Shown: in pieces, positions 2,097-61,884 of the stretch
Numbering within the stretch: position 1 is the stretch's first letter
Layout: each line of letters starts with the position of its first letter
Source: Arcicella aurantiaca
GTDB lineage: Bacteria; Bacteroidota; Bacteroidia; Cytophagales; Spirosomataceae
Direction: 5' to 3'
Assembly (NCBI RefSeq): GCF_003148625.1
Contig: NZ_QGGO01000001.1
Location: 124,001-188,000 of the forward strand
DNA: 64,000 nucleotides
Made by a program: the position numbers and the translations under genes
Notes under the pieces: generated by a model
Database searches by the model: none
What the model was told of the DNA's origin: nothing
The model's input: the letters and a program-made list of their open reading frames with translations, nothing else

Positions 2097-2599
2097 TTTC
2101 TTTAATTGTCAATGCTGTAAATTTACGATTTTTATTTTAGTATTTCTTTTTTGTTCATAGTTGTTACGTTTCTTATGCACGATGGCTGGTTTGGTGACAT
2201 CTATGAGACGATAAAGAATATCTGTATAGTCTTACTCTATTTATTAATAGTAAATATCAATTTGAATTATATTTCATTGCGTATTAAGTTTGCCATCGAA
2301 AATCAATACAAACAATAAGCGATAATATATGATGCTAAAAAACAGATAACTCTCTCAGAATATTTTTTCAGAAGTAAAACTATATTCACTAACACTAATT
2401 AAAACAGCGTTGAAGTAAGTCGGGCAGGATTTATTTTGACGCTGTTGCTGTTTCCATTGCTCTATTAATTTGGTCATTCTATCGACACATATCGGTAAAA
2501 GCGTCATGTCATGATACAAAATTTGAGGAAAATATCGTAATTTGTTGTGATAAGAACTTTTCAAAAACACAACTAATTTTCACAACAAATAAAAAACGG
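2097..2599. other. Gene-poor 503-bp intergenic region
   Basis: No convincing intact gene is seen. The region carries the 5' sides of the Rpn-like gene (minus) and the TonB-dependent receptor (plus), so both promoters should lie here. One short minus-strand open frame at 2355-2570 may be a gene remnant and is listed separately. Confidence 0.6.
2355..2570 (-). pseudogene. Possible cytochrome P450 fragment (very tentative)
   Basis: A 71-codon open frame contains a segment around VDRMTKLIEQWK preceded by KLRYFPQ. By eye this resembles the helix B'-C stretch of P450s (family pattern: F-x-x-x-L-x-x-F-x-P, then a hydrophobic helix ending in LIEKW). No heme-binding Cys motif, ExxR or I-helix is present, and the downstream part does not continue the family. 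If real, it is a short decayed fragment and not a working gene. It could equally be chance. Confidence 0.2.
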
Positions 2600-5026
2600 A
2601 TGCTTAAAAATTTACGATTCGTCTTGCTTACTAACCTTTTAACTTATTGCTTGATTTTCATTGCTTTGACTGATGTTTCTGCCCAAAATAGAGAAATCAA
2701 ATTGCCAATGTTAGATGGTAAAGTAACAGACTCTAAAACTGGAGAACCTATTGTTGGAGCAACAATTTCATTAGATTTTAAAAAGACAGGAATTACTACC
2801 GACACCGCTGGCTATTACCAATTATTTTTGCCTAATGGCGAATATGTTATCAAAGTTAGTCATGTTGGTTATAAGCCTTTTAGAATAAAATTGTTCCTAA
2901 ATGCTGACAAAAAATTGGACGTAACTTTAGAAGACGTAACCAAAACTTTGGAAGAAGTCATTGTGTCAAGTCAGGCTACTCGGAAAGATATTCAAACGCC
3001 TTCTTTGGGTGTTACGCTTTTGAGTATTAAGGGAATTAAAAAATTGCCTGCCATGATGGGTGAAGTTGATGTAATTCGTTCGCTCCAAACACTTCCTGGA
3101 GTATCGTCTGTGGGTGAAGGCTCTAATGGAATTAACGTTCGTGGAGGTGCTATTGACCAAAATTTAATCTATATCGACGAAGCTCCAATTTTCAATCCAA
3201 CTCACCTTTTTGGCTTATTTTCGGTTTTTGCCTCTGATGCTATTCGTGAATTGGAATTGTACAAAGGAGGAGTCCCAGCCCGTTTTGGAGGACGTTCCGC
3301 TTCAATTTTAGATATTAAAATGACCGAACCCAATCTTGAAAAATTCAAGATGTCGGGGGGAATTGGTTTAGTGTCAAACCGTGCAATGGTTGAAGTGCCA
3401 ATTATCAAAGATAAATTATCTATTTTGGCAGCAGGGCGTCTATCTTATAATGACTTTTGGTTTAAACTATTGGGTACAGATAATATCAAAAATACCCGTG
3501 CGAATTTCTATGATTTAGCTACAAAAGTTTTTTATCGTCCTAATAAGAATAACACCATTTCGCTTTCTACTTATATTAGTCACGATTATTATCAGGTAGA
3601 TTCTTTGTTTAGTTTAGAAAATGTTATTGCCAAACAAACCCAATTTACTTACGGACATCTTAATTTTTCTGGACGTTGGAGTCATTATTTTAACACACGT
3701 TTAAGCATGGACGTTCTGGGAGTTGTGAGTAATTATAAAACACGTACTTATTCGCCAGATAGTGTAAATAGAATTGATTTGAATAATAATATCAATTACA
3801 AAAACTTGAAAATCAACTTTGATTTTAACCCCAACGATAATCATAAAATCAATTTTGGATTGTCTGGAGTTCGCTACGATATTGCACCGGGAATGTTAAA
3901 TAAAGATGTGAAATCAAGAGTGGCTACGGTAATTTTACCCGACGAACAGTCTATGGAATTGGCGGCTTTTATAGATGATGAATACAAAGTAAGCAAAAAA
4001 TTTACGATTCAAGCAGGGCTTAGATATGCTCTTTTCATGAATTTAGGTCCATATTCAATTAGAAAATATATTGATGGACAACCCCGAACGACAAATACTC
4101 AAATAGGTACGGAAGAAATTGGGAGTGGTTCGGTTGAAAAAAGTTATGGAGGTATTGAGCCAAGAATTGCCATGAAATATTCTATTGGGGAAAATTCGAC
4201 CATTAAATTAGGTTATAACAGAATGCAACAATTTATCCAATTGCTTTCTAATAATACAACTCCTTTGCCAACTGCTCGTTGGAAAACCTCCGACACTTAC
4301 ATAAAGCCTCAACGTAGTGATTTTATTTCTTTAGGATATTTTAAAAATATTAAGGAAAATGTCTATGAGTTATCTGCCGAAGGATATTACCGTGAAACCA
4401 ATAATGTGTTGGATTATATTTCTGGGGCAAATTTGCAGTTGAATAATGCCATTGAAACCCAAGTCGTTTCTGGGCAAGCCAAAGCTTATGGCTTAGAATT
4501 GATGCTTACCAAAAAACGTGGCGAAATGAGTGGCTGGATTAGCTATACCTACGCACGTTCATTACAACAAGTACGTGGAGATTTCCCCGAATTACAACAA
4601 ATTGCTCACGGAAATTGGTATCCGTCCAACTATGATAAACCGCATACCGTAAACGCAATGATAAATATTCAGCCAACAAAACACCATAGTTTTGCCTTTA
4701 CGTTTGCGTATAATACAGGGCGTCCGTTTTCATCTCCTTCTGGATTATTTCAGATTGATAATAAGAAATATCCAGTTTATGAAACTCGTAATAATGACCG
4801 AGTTTCGGATTATCACCGTCTGGATTTTTCTTGGACGATAACCAATCCAAGTTTGAAAGAAAGACGTTGGGAAGGTTCGTGGACTTTTACGGTTTATAAT
4901 ATTTACGGACGTAAAAATGCTTATTCTGTATTTTTCAAATCTGTACCAGCAGGCATACAGCCTTACGAACTGAGCGTTTTTGGAGCTCCATTGATTTCAT
5001 TAACATACAATTTTAAATTTTTATAG
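2600..5026 (+). CDS. TonB-dependent outer-membrane receptor with N-terminal carboxypeptidase-like domain
   Basis: This 808-aa protein has an N-terminal signal peptide (hydrophobic stretch ending near VSAQNR). A CarboxypepD_reg-like beta-sandwich at about residues 33-115 (GKVTDSKTGEPIVGATI) follows. A plug domain at about 135-230 contains GVSSVGEGSNGINVRGG and LIYIDEAPIFNPTHLFG, and a long beta-barrel runs to a C-terminal aromatic residue (YNFKFL), the Omp-targeting signal. It is shorter than SusC proteins (~1000 aa), lacks a SusD partner and matches the FecA-like/DUF4249-associated receptors of Bacteroidota. The downstream lipoprotein at 5151 is probably co-transcribed. The substrate is unknown; iron chelates or other scarce nutrients are the usual guess. 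Confidence 0.9.
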   Translation: MLKNLRFVLLTNLLTYCLIFIALTDVSAQNREIKLPMLDGKVTDSKTGEPIVGATISLDFKKTGITTDTAGYYQLFLPNGEYVIKVSHVGYKPFRIKLFLNADKKLDVTLEDVTKTLEEVIVSSQATRKDIQTPSLGVTLLSIKGIKKLPAMMGEVDVIRSLQTLPGVSSVGEGSNGINVRGGAIDQNLIYIDEAPIFNPTHLFGLFSVFASDAIRELELYKGGVPARFGGRSASILDIKMTEPNLEKFKMSGGIGLVSNRAMVEVPIIKDKLSILAAGRLSYNDFWFKLLGTDNIKNTRANFYDLATKVFYRPNKNNTISLSTYISHDYYQVDSLFSLENVIAKQTQFTYGHLNFSGRWSHYFNTRLSMDVLGVVSNYKTRTYSPDSVNRIDLNNNINYKNLKINFDFNPNDNHKINFGLSGVRYDIAPGMLNKDVKSRVATVILPDEQSMELAAFIDDEYKVSKKFTIQAGLRYALFMNLGPYSIRKYIDGQPRTTNTQIGTEEIGSGSVEKSYGGIEPRIAMKYSIGENSTIKLGYNRMQQFIQLLSNNTTPLPTARWKTSDTYIKPQRSDFISLGYFKNIKENVYELSAEGYYRETNNVLDYISGANLQLNNAIETQVVSGQAKAYGLELMLTKKRGEMSGWISYTYARSLQQVRGDFPELQQIAHGNWYPSNYDKPHTVNAMINIQPTKHHSFAFTFAYNTGRPFSSPSGLFQIDNKKYPVYETRNNDRVSDYHRLDFSWTITNPSLKERRWEGSWTFTVYNIYGRKNAYSVFFKSVPAGIQPYELSVFGAPLISLTYNFKFL

Positions 5027-18258: not shown

Positions 18259-18260
18259 TG

Positions 18261-18450
18261 TAACACAGACTTCAGTCTGTATGTAGAAAGAATACTTACA
18301 GACTGAAGTCTGTATATACAAAGAATACTTACAGACTAAAGTCTGTATATAGAAAGAATACTTACAGACTTCAGTCTGTATGTAGAAAGAATACTTACAG
18401 ACTGAAGTCTGTATATAGAAAGAATACTTACAGACTAAAGTCTGTGTTAC
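18261..18450. repeat. REP array: six CAGAC-N4-GTCTG palindromes, exact 33-bp period
   Basis: Fourteen-base palindromes start at 18266, 18299, 18332, 18365, 18398 and 18431. The four central bases run TTCA, TGAA, TAAA, TTCA, TGAA, TAAA, so the array is two copies of a 99-bp three-unit block. Spacers are near-identical (TATRTASAAAGAATACTTA). The outer edges are inverted copies of GTAACA/TGTTAC. It fills most of the 334-bp gap between murF and the next gene. The same palindrome flanks the transposase gene at 61.2 kb. Not CRISPR: the unit is too short and the spacers are not unique. Confidence 0.9.
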
Positions 18451-40154: not shown

Positions 40155-40214
40155 GTACCACAGACTTTAGTCTGTAAGTATGAATAATTATTTACAGGCT
40201 AAAGCCTGTGGTAC
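40155..40214. repeat. Inverted pair of diverged REP palindromes
   Basis: CAGACTTTAGTCTG (40161-40174) and CAGGCTAAAGCCTG (40195-40208) are enclosed by GTACCACAG / CTGTGGTAC. The second has paired A-to-G and T-to-C changes in its stem, i.e. compensatory changes that keep base pairing. It belongs to the family at 18.3 and 61 kb. It lies 8 bp after the SNF2 stop codon and before the next gene. Confidence 0.8.
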
Positions 40215-58402: not shown

Positions 58403-59803
58403 CTATTCTTCTCTATTGTTATAAGCACGATACCAGTCTATATTTCGGGTCAAGTACATGACGATTGCCAAAATAATTAATAGTCCGATACTTCCGAGCA
58501 ATAAAGAATAATCTTCCAACTGTAATAATGAATAGAAAAAGCCATAAAGCAACGCAAGTATTCCGTTGAATATCAGAGTGATACGAGTATTTTTGAAGAT
58601 GCTTTGCGTATAAAAAATTATGAGTGTGAGTATAACAACACAGCCTATTAAGTATGCTATATTGAACGATAAATGTTCTGAAATGGCAAGAAGTAATACG
58701 TAAAATAAGCTAATTGCAAAACCTACTAACAAGTATTGAATGGGGTGCAAACGTCTTTTATTGAGAATTTCTACGAAGAAAAACGCTATAAAAGTGATAA
58801 CAATAAACATCAAATTGTATTTAGTAGAACGAATTGTTTTTTGATACTCATCGACAGGTAAAAGTAATTTTACACCAAAAGAACTTGGCAATTCTGCCGC
58901 AACTTTTGTAGGGATTGCTTCTTGATTGGATGCTGAAATATTTTCTTGATAATTAGTACCAATAAAATTTCCAAGTCCTTGTTGCGGATAGTTTCGGTTG
59001 AGATGTAATTCATTCCAAACAGCTTTAAACCCTTTTTCTGTAACTTGACGGTCGTCTGGCAATGATGCTCCCACAAAACTTGGCGTTCCCCAAGACGATT
59101 CTATGGTCACTTTTGTTGTTTTTCCGAATGGTAAAAAGTCAATTTCCTTGCTTCCATTTAAGTTGATATGGGCATCAAAATTGATGGTTTCGGAATCTAA
59201 ATTGATGGGGCAACTTACGCCAGAGGCAAACAAATCTTTCGACTCAATTCCAGAGTTCATTTCTTTTGGTACTCCATTGATTTTCAAATTAATTGCCTCT
59301 TTGATTCCCTTCATATCCGTTAATCCAAAAGAGATAAACGCTTCTGAAAATAGAAATCTTTCTTTCGGAATTTTCAATAATTCAACGTTCGGTTTTTTGA
59401 AAAATCCTTCGATATGCAGTTGTGCATTATAAAGCATCACGACGTAAATACCTCGATACCGTTTTTCTGGAATCAGTTTGCCTGTAATATTAAGATTTTC
59501 GGGTAAAAAGTGGGCGTATTCTATCACTGTTGACTTTTTACCTTTATCATCTTCTTGGATTATGGTATAAGGAATGGTAATAACTGCCCCGCCAATAGTC
59601 TGATTACTTCCCCATTTTGAGGTTATTTCTTCCACCGCATTGTCACGAGTAGCTTGTCGTTCATGAATCAAACTTTCCAACATGGCAGAAGGAATTATTA
59701 ATATCAAAATCAGAATGAAAATGGTAATAAGTTTGAGCATAACCGAACTTTTTACCCAATTATTAAAGCGTTCAAAAAGCGATGTTTTTTCTGTTGATTC
59801 CAT
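58403..59803 (-). CDS. creD: Cell-envelope protein CreD
   Basis: This 466-aa inner-membrane protein has an N-terminal helix (LKLITIFILILILIIPSAML), a large extracytoplasmic domain (GGAVITIPYTI, FLPENLNITGKLIPEKRYRG, LPFGKTTKVTIESSWGTPSF) and several C-terminal helices (RRLHPIQYLLVGFAISLFYV; LLALSEHLSFNIAYLIGC-like). In Proteobacteria creD is controlled by the CreBC two-component system and affects envelope integrity and beta-lactam response. Here no CreBC is present; a winged-helix regulator and a small membrane protein precede it, forming a three-gene operon. Confidence 0.92.
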   Translation of the reverse strand: MESTEKTSLFERFNNWVKSSVMLKLITIFILILILIIPSAMLESLIHERQATRDNAVEEITSKWGSNQTIGGAVITIPYTIIQEDDKGKKSTVIEYAHFLPENLNITGKLIPEKRYRGIYVVMLYNAQLHIEGFFKKPNVELLKIPKERFLFSEAFISFGLTDMKGIKEAINLKINGVPKEMNSGIESKDLFASGVSCPINLDSETINFDAHINLNGSKEIDFLPFGKTTKVTIESSWGTPSFVGASLPDDRQVTEKGFKAVWNELHLNRNYPQQGLGNFIGTNYQENISASNQEAIPTKVAAELPSSFGVKLLLPVDEYQKTIRSTKYNLMFIVITFIAFFFVEILNKRRLHPIQYLLVGFAISLFYVLLLAISEHLSFNIAYLIGCVVILTLIIFYTQSIFKNTRITLIFNGILALLYGFFYSLLQLEDYSLLLGSIGLLIILAIVMYLTRNIDWYRAYNNREE

Positions 59804-59904: not shown

Positions 59905-60201
59905 TTACATTCCTTTTATCAAAGCTTCTAAAGCATTCAAATGCTCTTGAAAGGCTTGTTTTCCTTCTGTTGTTGCTTGAAAAGACGTATTCGGTCGTTT
60001 GCCAATAAATGCCTTACGGATTTGTATGTATTTTTCTTTTTCTAATGCTGAAATATGAGATGATAAATTACCGTCTGTAAGGTCAAGCATTTCTTTTAAT
60101 TCGCCAAAATCTACCCAATCGTTCACCATGAGGATAGACATAATGCCCAACCGTACACGATTTTCGAAAGCTTTATTTATATCAGCGATTAAGTTTTTCA
60201 T
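59905..60201 (-). CDS. Winged-helix regulator (HTH_34/ArsR-like)
   Basis: This 98-aa protein consists almost only of a winged helix: NRVRLGIMSILMVNDWVDFG, LKEMLDLTDGNLSSHISALE (recognition helix), KEKYIQIRKAFIGKRPNTSF (wing). There are no metal-binding Cys of ArsR sensors. It is co-transcribed with the membrane protein upstream and creD downstream and probably controls this operon; the signal is unknown. Confidence 0.85.
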   Translation of the reverse strand: MKNLIADINKAFENRVRLGIMSILMVNDWVDFGELKEMLDLTDGNLSSHISALEKEKYIQIRKAFIGKRPNTSFQATTEGKQAFQEHLNALEALIKGM

Positions 60202-60249: not shown

Positions 60250-60861
60250 TCACCGCTCATATTTCTTGTACATCACAATTCCGTAAACAATGTGTAAAAC
60301 TCCAAAACCCAAAGCCCAGAAGAGTAATCCGATTCGCCATTCGTTCAAAAGTCCGCAAGCTAAGCCCAAAACAACTTCTATGTAACCTACATATTTAACA
60401 TCGTCGTAAGTGTATTTTGAGGCGTTTATTAAGGCTAAACCATAAAAAACTAAAGTTGCAGAGTCAATCAAATGCGGAGCTTGTTGTAATAAAATCAAGC
60501 AGAAAAAACCGCCTGCAATTAACGGAACGCCCATATTTACCAATAATCTTCTCGAAGTATTATCCCAAAGCTTTAATCCTTTCTTTTTGGCTTGTCGAGC
60601 AGTTAAATAAAATGCAAAAATAAGCGAAAACGTCAAAACCACGATGCCGTCAACTACAATGAAACGGAGCAAAGGAGTATTGTCTAATAGATTCAAATAC
60701 TCGCCTTCGTTATCTTCCAAAATACGATTATAGGCAATATAGGCACCTATTAAAGCAAATGTTCCTGCAAAAACGCCTGATAATCCACTCAATGAAATAA
60801 ATCGAGAAGAACGTTCCATCATCGAACGAATTTCTGTAAGGTCTTGGAGATGTTGTTTCAT
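60250..60861 (-). CDS. Membrane protein of the creD operon
   Basis: This 203-aa protein has about six membrane helices (LSGVFAGTFALIGAYIAYN; GIVVLTFSLIFAFYLTA; VYGIVMYKKYER at the end). No named family recognised, but the trio membrane protein, winged-helix regulator, CreD recurs in Bacteroidota. A promoter-like TTACTTTG (minus) lies ~30 bp upstream. Confidence 0.7.
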   Translation of the reverse strand: MKQHLQDLTEIRSMMERSSRFISLSGLSGVFAGTFALIGAYIAYNRILEDNEGEYLNLLDNTPLLRFIVVDGIVVLTFSLIFAFYLTARQAKKKGLKLWDNTSRRLLVNMGVPLIAGGFFCLILLQQAPHLIDSATLVFYGLALINASKYTYDDVKYVGYIEVVLGLACGLLNEWRIGLLFWALGFGVLHIVYGIVMYKKYER

Positions 60862-60950
60862 TTTGATTCAAATTACTTTGTGGTGCAAAGTAAATGTGTG
60901 AGTTTTTATTTTCCAAACTTTTATAGATTATTTATTTGGAAAATTAATGT

Positions 60951-61165
60951 AACACAGACTTCAGTCTGTAAGTATAAAATTGTTGATTGAAAATATTTCA
61001 TATATTTACTGTTACAGACTAAAGTCTGTGTTACATTTTACAGACTAAAGTCTGTGTTATATTTTACAGACTAAAGTCTGTGTTACATTTTACAGACTAA
61101 AGTCTGTGTTACATTTTACAGACTAAAGTCTGTGTTACATTTTACAGACTAAAGTCTGTGTTACA
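60951..61165. repeat. REP array: seven CAGAC-N4-GTCTG palindromes, six at exact 26-bp period
   Basis: Palindromes start at 60955 (TTCA centre), then 61015, 61041, 61067, 61093, 61119 and 61145 (all TAAA centre). The 26-bp unit is CAGACTAAAGTCTG plus TGTTACATTTTA (one unit has TGTTATATTTTA). The array ends 12 bp before the start codon of the transposase gene and must form much of its leader. It shares its palindrome with the arrays at 18.3 and 40.2 kb. Confidence 0.92.
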
Positions 61166-61176
61166 AATTCTACCAA

Positions 61177-61857
61177 ATGAAATTAATCAAAACTGTCTAC
61201 CGAAGAAATCTGCCCCATATCCAACCAATTGGTTCAACTTTCTTTATTACTTTTAATCTTCATGATGCAATTCCGGTACAGATTATTGTTGCTTTACAAC
61301 AGGAAAAACTTATCAAAATTGCTTATCTAAGAGATAATAGACCTCTAAATTTTTATGAGGAAATTATTAAAGAACACAAACGACATTTCTCGAGATTTGA
61401 TGCTATTTTGGATAATGCTATTCATGGTGAAAACTACTTAAAGAATAGAGAAGTTGCCCAAATAGTGATGGATAAAATAACCTTTTACGATGGAAAATAT
61501 TATGATTTGTTGGCAGTTTGCATTATGTCTAATCATGTACATTTATTGATAGATTTGTATGTGCAAATTGAGGATTTGCCAGCAAGTACAGAAATTACCT
61601 CTAATAATTATAAACCTTTGTCAGAGCTATTAAAGTTGATAAAAGGAAGTTCAGCTTATGAAGCGAATAAAATTATTAAGAGAAAAGGGAGATTTTGGCA
61701 AGTAGAGTCGTATGACCACTATGTTAGAAATGAAAAGGAACGGGATAATATCATCAGCTATATAGCAAATAATCCTGTCAAAGCTAACTTGGTAAATTTT
61801 TGGCAGGATTTTTCCTTTACTTACGTGAAAGATGTTTATCAATTAAATTTACCTTGA
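61177..61857 (+). CDS. REP-associated tyrosine (Y1/HUH) transposase
   Basis: 226 aa. IMSNHVHLLID carries the HUH metal-binding pair His120 and His122. The catalytic Tyr candidate is Tyr195 in NIISYIANNPVKANLV, the family's YIxxNPVKA motif. GRFWQVESYDHYVRNEKER upstream is also typical of RAYTs. There is no IS200/IS605 partner gene (tnpB) and no long ends. The gene is enclosed by CAGACTAAAGTCTG palindromes on both sides (array up to 61158; single copy at 61865), the natural substrates of this class. RAYTs nick and move REP elements. All key residues are kept, so activity is plausible. Confidence 0.92.
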   Translation: MKLIKTVYRRNLPHIQPIGSTFFITFNLHDAIPVQIIVALQQEKLIKIAYLRDNRPLNFYEEIIKEHKRHFSRFDAILDNAIHGENYLKNREVAQIVMDKITFYDGKYYDLLAVCIMSNHVHLLIDLYVQIEDLPASTEITSNNYKPLSELLKLIKGSSAYEANKIIKRKGRFWQVESYDHYVRNEKERDNIISYIANNPVKANLVNFWQDFSFTYVKDVYQLNLP

Positions 61858-61862
61858 TTATT

Positions 61863-61884
61863 TACAGACTAAAGTCTGTGTTAC
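61863..61884. repeat. Single REP palindrome 3' of the transposase gene
   Basis: CAGACTAAAGTCTG at 61865-61878 with TTA and TGTTAC flanks, identical to the 26-bp unit upstream. It lies 6 bp after the transposase stop and 12 bp before the next start. Confidence 0.9.

Follow-up and report, generated by a model that had tools for sequence, protein, structure and literature searches.

The locus at 60949-61884 of the window analysed here is very probably a REPtron, that is a RAYT (TnpA_REP) with its cognate REPs, 5'-GTAAC-ACAGACTTYAGTCTGT-3'. The window is a 64,000-nt stretch of the genome of Arcicella aurantiaca (GCF_003148625.1, contig NZ_QGGO01000001.1, positions 124,001-188,000 of the forward strand), and coordinates are window positions unless a contig piece is named. 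The RAYT-REP unit itself is of a known kind; its variant part is the GTAA foot, which lies outside the published rule. RAYTs are mostly single-copy, seemingly domesticated transposases that sustain populations of short repeats. By analogy with the TnpA_REP of Escherichia coli, we infer that the protein would bind the REP hairpin in single-stranded DNA, make use of its GTA-type foot, nick the DNA beside the hairpin and join the ends again. Such nicking and rejoining would allow REPINs, i.e., two REPs with their feet outward, to multiply in intergenic DNA. The features are as follows.

60949-60969, plus strand: REP at the left end of the unit, foot outward (GTAAC-ACAGACTTCAGTCTGT)
61014-61164, minus strand: six REPs in a direct array with a period of 26 bp, feet towards the gene (starts at 61014, 61040, 61066, 61092, 61118 and 61144)
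61177-61857, plus strand: predicted RAYT (TnpA_REP) gene, 226 aa, with NHVH (119-122), WQ (174-175) and Y195 in SYIANNP
61864-61884, minus strand: REP at the right end of the unit, 6 bp past the stop codon
18260-18450, no strand assigned: further array built from the same stems with a period of 33 bp, its outermost feet pointing outward
40155-40214, no strand assigned: further REPIN of the family, one arm with the exact core, the other degenerate

An earlier sequence-only reading had described six periodic 26-bp units and one more distant palindrome 5' of a Y1 transposase gene, with an identical palindrome 6 bp 3' of it, and this anatomy is confirmed. The six direct units begin at 61012 and are exactly spaced, the unit at 61040-61060 having one changed foot position, while the 3' palindrome has the sequence of the array and follows the TGA at 61855-61857. 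The distant palindrome at 60949-60969 is inverted relative to the array and, in the same strand sense, reads TTCA in its loop as compared to TTTA in the array, so it is similar to the array units and not identical to them. Repeat cores number 15 in the window, against a mean of 0.03 in shuffled sequences. In the other array of the window (18260-18450), the inner units are without the GTAAC foot and the two outermost have it. The divergent neighbour of the RAYT gene (60250-60861, minus strand) codes for a protein of 203 aa that has no Pfam match at 0.01, and its own neighbours code for a winged-helix regulator (59905-60201) and a CreD-like protein (58403-59803).

Judged by its motifs and profile matches, the gene product is a single-domain HUH/Y1 transposase of the RAYT kind, in agreement with the sequence-only reading. 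It matches Pfam Y1_Tnp with 27 bits, above the cut-off of 23, and its best PDB match is the TnpA_REP structure 4er8 (3e-07); it contains the HUH motif NHVH, a single Tyr motif, SYIANNP, and WQ. The curated NCBIfam model REP_Tyr_transpos gives it 67.8 bits, under the model cut-off of 80; on six other RAYTs, two of them from the same genome, this model gives 70.6 to 88.4 bits and three of the six pass. The motifs NHVH, WQ and YIANNP fit the pattern NH[IFV]H, WQ and YIxNNP of subclass 2.4 (RAYT group 4) and would tentatively place the protein there, and since the foot of its REPs is not GT[AG]G the locus is filed as a RAYT, its subclass remaining tentative. The outward-footed REPs at both ends of the unit would suit an IS200/IS605-like element, a single insertion sequence in which the gene travels with the palindromes at its ends. 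We consider such an element very improbable: the genome holds one copy of the gene, the next best protein being 45% identical, the IS200 transposase model gives only 14.1 bits against a cut-off of 55, and a remnant of the gene is found at the same locus in a relative (see below), as for a stably inherited gene.

The core CAGACNNNNGTCTG is found 220 times in the 5.93-Mb genome, against 0 for the backward-read control pattern. The palindrome is therefore present elsewhere, and the genome-wide repeat family that had been proposed from the window alone is supported. Loops among the 220 cores are mainly TAAA/TTTA (133) and TGAA/TTCA (80), and aligned sites delimit the oriented REP given above, conservation dropping outside it. 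A census of about 418 kb of DNA around the listed sites, covering 100 of the 133 TAAA sites among the matches listed and allowing up to 4 mismatches in 21, yielded 229 oriented REPs in 103 clusters. The repeat family forms REPINs: inverted doublets with feet outward are the commonest arrangement (58 of 103 clusters), the reverse doublet was found 0 times, and 77 of the 80 multi-unit clusters start with a plus unit and end with a minus unit. The two arms of a doublet share their loop base in 43 of 58 cases (mean 32 expected, p 0.002), and six rare variants are common to both arms, versus 1.2 expected (p 0.001). Interiors range from 7 to 84 nt (n=58) with no set length; in the 51 interiors of 7-25 nt that were compared, whole-length likeness is slightly above that of shuffled sequences, one pair is prominent and the cores are unlike. 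Since the arms are 97.7% identical to the consensus and the interiors have almost no homology beyond chance, simple copying of whole REPINs followed by neutral decay fits poorly. The unlike interiors could result, for example, from frequent repair at the centres of the palindromes.

The clusters lie largely outside genes: 80 of the 102 that could be placed are outside ORFs of at least 150 aa, as compared to 17% of random points, and 22 are inside, as compared to 83%. Among the 80 intergenic clusters, 27 separate convergent and 43 codirectional neighbours. This distribution would suit terminators, and the palindromes might then be a terminator or protein-binding repeat unrelated to the gene, the RAYT lying among the copies by chance; one relative, G052, has the repeats and no RAYT match. 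Against this stand three lines of evidence: three RAYTs in one genome flanked by three distinct palindrome families, the enrichment of footed hairpins at RAYTs and the correlation between RAYT and REP similarity, all detailed below. Taken with these, a chance association is highly unlikely.

The genome encodes three RAYTs, the other two being 43 and 45% identical to that of the window. They adjoin palindromes of their own, GTAATACGGACAGC and GTAACCCGATGC, which have 45 (up to 2 mismatches) and 32 (up to 3 mismatches) genomic matches, and in both families the fourth foot base is also A or G. The second RAYT (C10; 2437-3489 of piece C10:10500-16500) has a 3' array of about eight units, mostly of 33-bp period, and the third (C15; 2408-3229 of piece C15:100300-106000) adjoins the third palindrome family with no array. 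A genome with three RAYT/REP pairs and feet mainly of the GTAA type is a convenient test case.

To these three loci were added the best 80 of 172 from a contig search and 29 from a family search, giving 112, reduced to 110 once identical DNA was dropped and to 108 once identical proteins were dropped. A GTA-footed hairpin lies within 300 bp of the RAYT at 82 of the 108 loci (upstream at 69, downstream at 67, on both sides at 54), and 26 loci are without one. Across the 110 loci, the density of footed hairpins is 4.15 per kb near RAYTs versus 0.139 per kb in DNA more than 1 kb away, a 30-fold difference. Among 168 control hairpins from that distant DNA, 32 carry a GTA foot by chance, and an isolated case is accordingly weak evidence. 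REP similarity correlates with the identity of the RAYTs over the 63 loci where both a complete ORF and an oriented REP are available (Mantel r 0.39, p <=0.0005). A strict search for REPs inside the RAYT gene found none here and none at any of these 63 loci.

The distribution of the repeat among relatives also fits a population dependent on the RAYT gene. In the eight genomes of the genus, the footed repeat (up to 3 mismatches) occurs 252 times in A. aurantiaca, 55 times in G088, 33 times in G052 and 14 times in G065, with 0 in the four others, three of which (G036, G077 and G105) have other RAYTs. G088 retains the neighbour gene, 78% identical, and of the RAYT next to it just the end (71% identity over 52 residues, with one stop), along with a broken palindrome. 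The 33 repeats of G052 come without a RAYT match; a gene may have been missed, however, as the genomes of G088 and G052 are drafts with a completeness of 86 and 95%, respectively. The repeat is thus not equally common in relatives lacking the transposase, even though G052 keeps its copies; equal abundance in such relatives, like absence of the palindrome from the rest of the genome, had been named as contrary to the REP/RAYT reading. The view of the locus as founder of the family holds insofar as it carries the sole intact cognate RAYT found; that the family originated here and spread from it is what we infer rather than observe. More widely, a search of 200 genomes of the bacterial family gave protein matches (E <=0.001) in 85, many of these matches being weak, and the core CAGACTNNAGTCTG in 35, of which 23 contain one or two copies. 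Three genomes (G094, G102 and G139) have 5 to 8 cores each, which may count against the cognate-RAYT reading.

Other relatives show variations of the unit. A RAYT with 52% identity and what looks like an internal gap of some 31 residues is found in G088:C195 (L161, about 2715-3440), and the REP beside it has one different stem pair (CAGGCTTTAGCCTG). A distant RAYT (35% identical) in an Ignavibacteria MAG (L116, about 2230-3290) lies in arrays of a very similar repeat, GTAACACAGACTATCAGTCTGTG, a likeness that may reflect either convergence or transfer. The genus g13, in which six genomes have 11 to 30 cores apiece and only one of the six (G158) shows a weak RAYT match, was considered as a counterexample and rejected. 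Ten of its loci, from five of the six genomes (L163-L168 and L170-L173; the sixth genome, G197 with L169, and L174-L176 were left out), are flanked by CCC/GGG or the like and lack the GTAAC foot, and the g13 repeat is consequently another repeat. It has the same core and loop, mostly as CCCCAGACTTTAGTCTGGGG, and often lies near CCTAGGCTTTAGCCTAGG.

Arrays are not peculiar to the RAYT locus. Clusters of at least three units make up 20 of the 103 in the 418-kb census of matches listed, with up to seven units counted, so the array beside the RAYT gene is one of several. In regular arrays the spacer and the period vary (about 26 to 38 bp) and it is mostly one arm that is multiplied. The array by the RAYT gene most likely arose through amplification of one arm of a REPIN in place, in the manner of other REPINs in the genome, rather than as a dedicated regulator. 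In the sequence-only reading, the hairpins had necessarily to be part of the mRNA leader, and repeat copy number might tune expression of the transposase. Transcription would then run through the array, making it the 5' leader of the RAYT mRNA, and expression would be set by how many hairpins it contains or by the protein binding to them. The last unit ends at 61164, 12 bp ahead of the ATG at 61177, the array RNA has a strong predicted fold (z -8.68), and at least four footed hairpins lie upstream of the gene at 7 of the 108 RAYT loci. The fold does not discriminate, since any such inverted-repeat array would fold strongly. At least four footed hairpins lie downstream at 6 of the 108 loci, the totals are 135 upstream and 135 downstream, the other two RAYTs of this genome have no upstream array (that of C10 is 3' and C15 has none), and arrays also occur away from RAYTs. 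Both parts of the proposal are left unsupported by these counts; leader regulation is possible for this gene, albeit unlikely, and is not supported as a general feature. The -7 promoter consensus of Bacteroidota is TAnnTTTG, and array units in 61032-61143 carry TACATTTT or TATATTTT, each one mismatch away; no promoter was established for the RAYT gene beyond such one-mismatch matches. In the open-licence literature, we found no report of control by arrays, or of other feet, for RAYTs or REPINs in Bacteroidetes.

The feature that sets this family apart is its foot. The fourth base in the 217 GTA-footed REPs of the family is A in 190, G in 22 and C in 5. The family hence departs from the GT[AG]G foot given for subclass 2.4 in the relevant part of Quentin et al. 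2018 (PMC6006769), and its GTAG copies may be later mutations. The portion of that survey drawn on here describes an automatic, human-supervised REP search ruled by GTAG or GTGG (PMC6006769), and the published experiments and surveys, insofar as the portions drawn on here represent them, centre on these two feet (PMC6006769, PMC8266576). For our tally, a locus had to contain, within 400 bp, one hairpin at least twice and each time with an unchanged foot, which kept 50 of the 110 loci; L064 and L131 carry the same protein and were counted once, bringing 50 loci to 49 and GTAG from 17 to 16. In these 49 related loci the fourth base is G in 16, A in 14, C in 11 and T in 8, in a search that demanded GTA and was blind to GTGG. 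We tentatively suggest that the foot in this RAYT branch is GTA plus a free fourth base, varying between families and even between copies in one genome without a matching change in the protein, and that this base may be an evolving guide letter setting the site of cutting and insertion, GTAA then predicting TT or TA. The idea of a guide letter comes from one Marinomonas RAYT, in which a change of the fourth base moved the cleavage dinucleotide predictably, similar attempts in E. coli and Stenotrophomonas having failed (Corneloup et al. 2021, PMC8266576, in the portion drawn on here).

Our own comparisons on a guide role came out negative or were too small. No protein column tracked the fourth base over the 50 loci (best z 3.7 versus 4.26 for 95% of the null), a comparison of little power. 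CT or CA within 8 bp upstream of the outer copies is no commoner with GTAG (3 of 21) than with GTAA (40 of 150). TT or TA is present within 8 bp upstream at 166 of 180 outer ends, versus 142 of 180 at -30 to -23 in this AT-rich genome, which backs the guide reading weakly. A GTAC-footed family in G175 (6 cores) and a GTAG-footed one in G127 (25 cores, 15 loci read) are too small for a test of targets. Should the fourth base prove free, a large number of REP families will have escaped notice, and a natural series of feet is at hand to distinguish a DNA guide from a tag read by the protein.

The unit can be compared with three described systems, in each case with the portions of the source papers drawn on here. 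The REPINs of Pseudomonas fluorescens SBW25 (Bertels and Rainey 2011, PMC3116915) are likewise extragenic inverted REP doublets with linked RAYTs, and evenly spaced tandem REP arrays occur there too. The GI doublets of SBW25 have a fixed distance of 71 bp, whereas the interiors here have neither a set length nor a shared sequence (PMC3116915). With TnpA_REP subclass 2.4, or RAYT group 4 (PMC6006769), the protein shares NHVH, WQ and YIANNP; Bacteroidetes are among the hosts of this subclass, and REPs beside the gene and one family per RAYT are alike. The differences are the foot, GTAA here and GT[AG]G there, a basal stem, ACAG, less G+C-rich than the short-hairpin rule has it, and the in-gene REPs described there, which the strict search did not find here (PMC6006769). 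Finally, the TnpA_REPs of E. coli, Stenotrophomonas and Marinomonas (Corneloup et al. 2021, PMC8266576) also combine a Y1 protein with a hairpin carrying a 5' tetranucleotide. Counting from the conserved Trp, we would match the E. coli residues W94, Q95, H101 and R104 to W174, Q175, H181 and R184, and E100 to D180. The E. coli protein tolerated no change in GTAG in the experiments described in that portion (PMC8266576), whereas the foot of the Arcicella family is GTAA.
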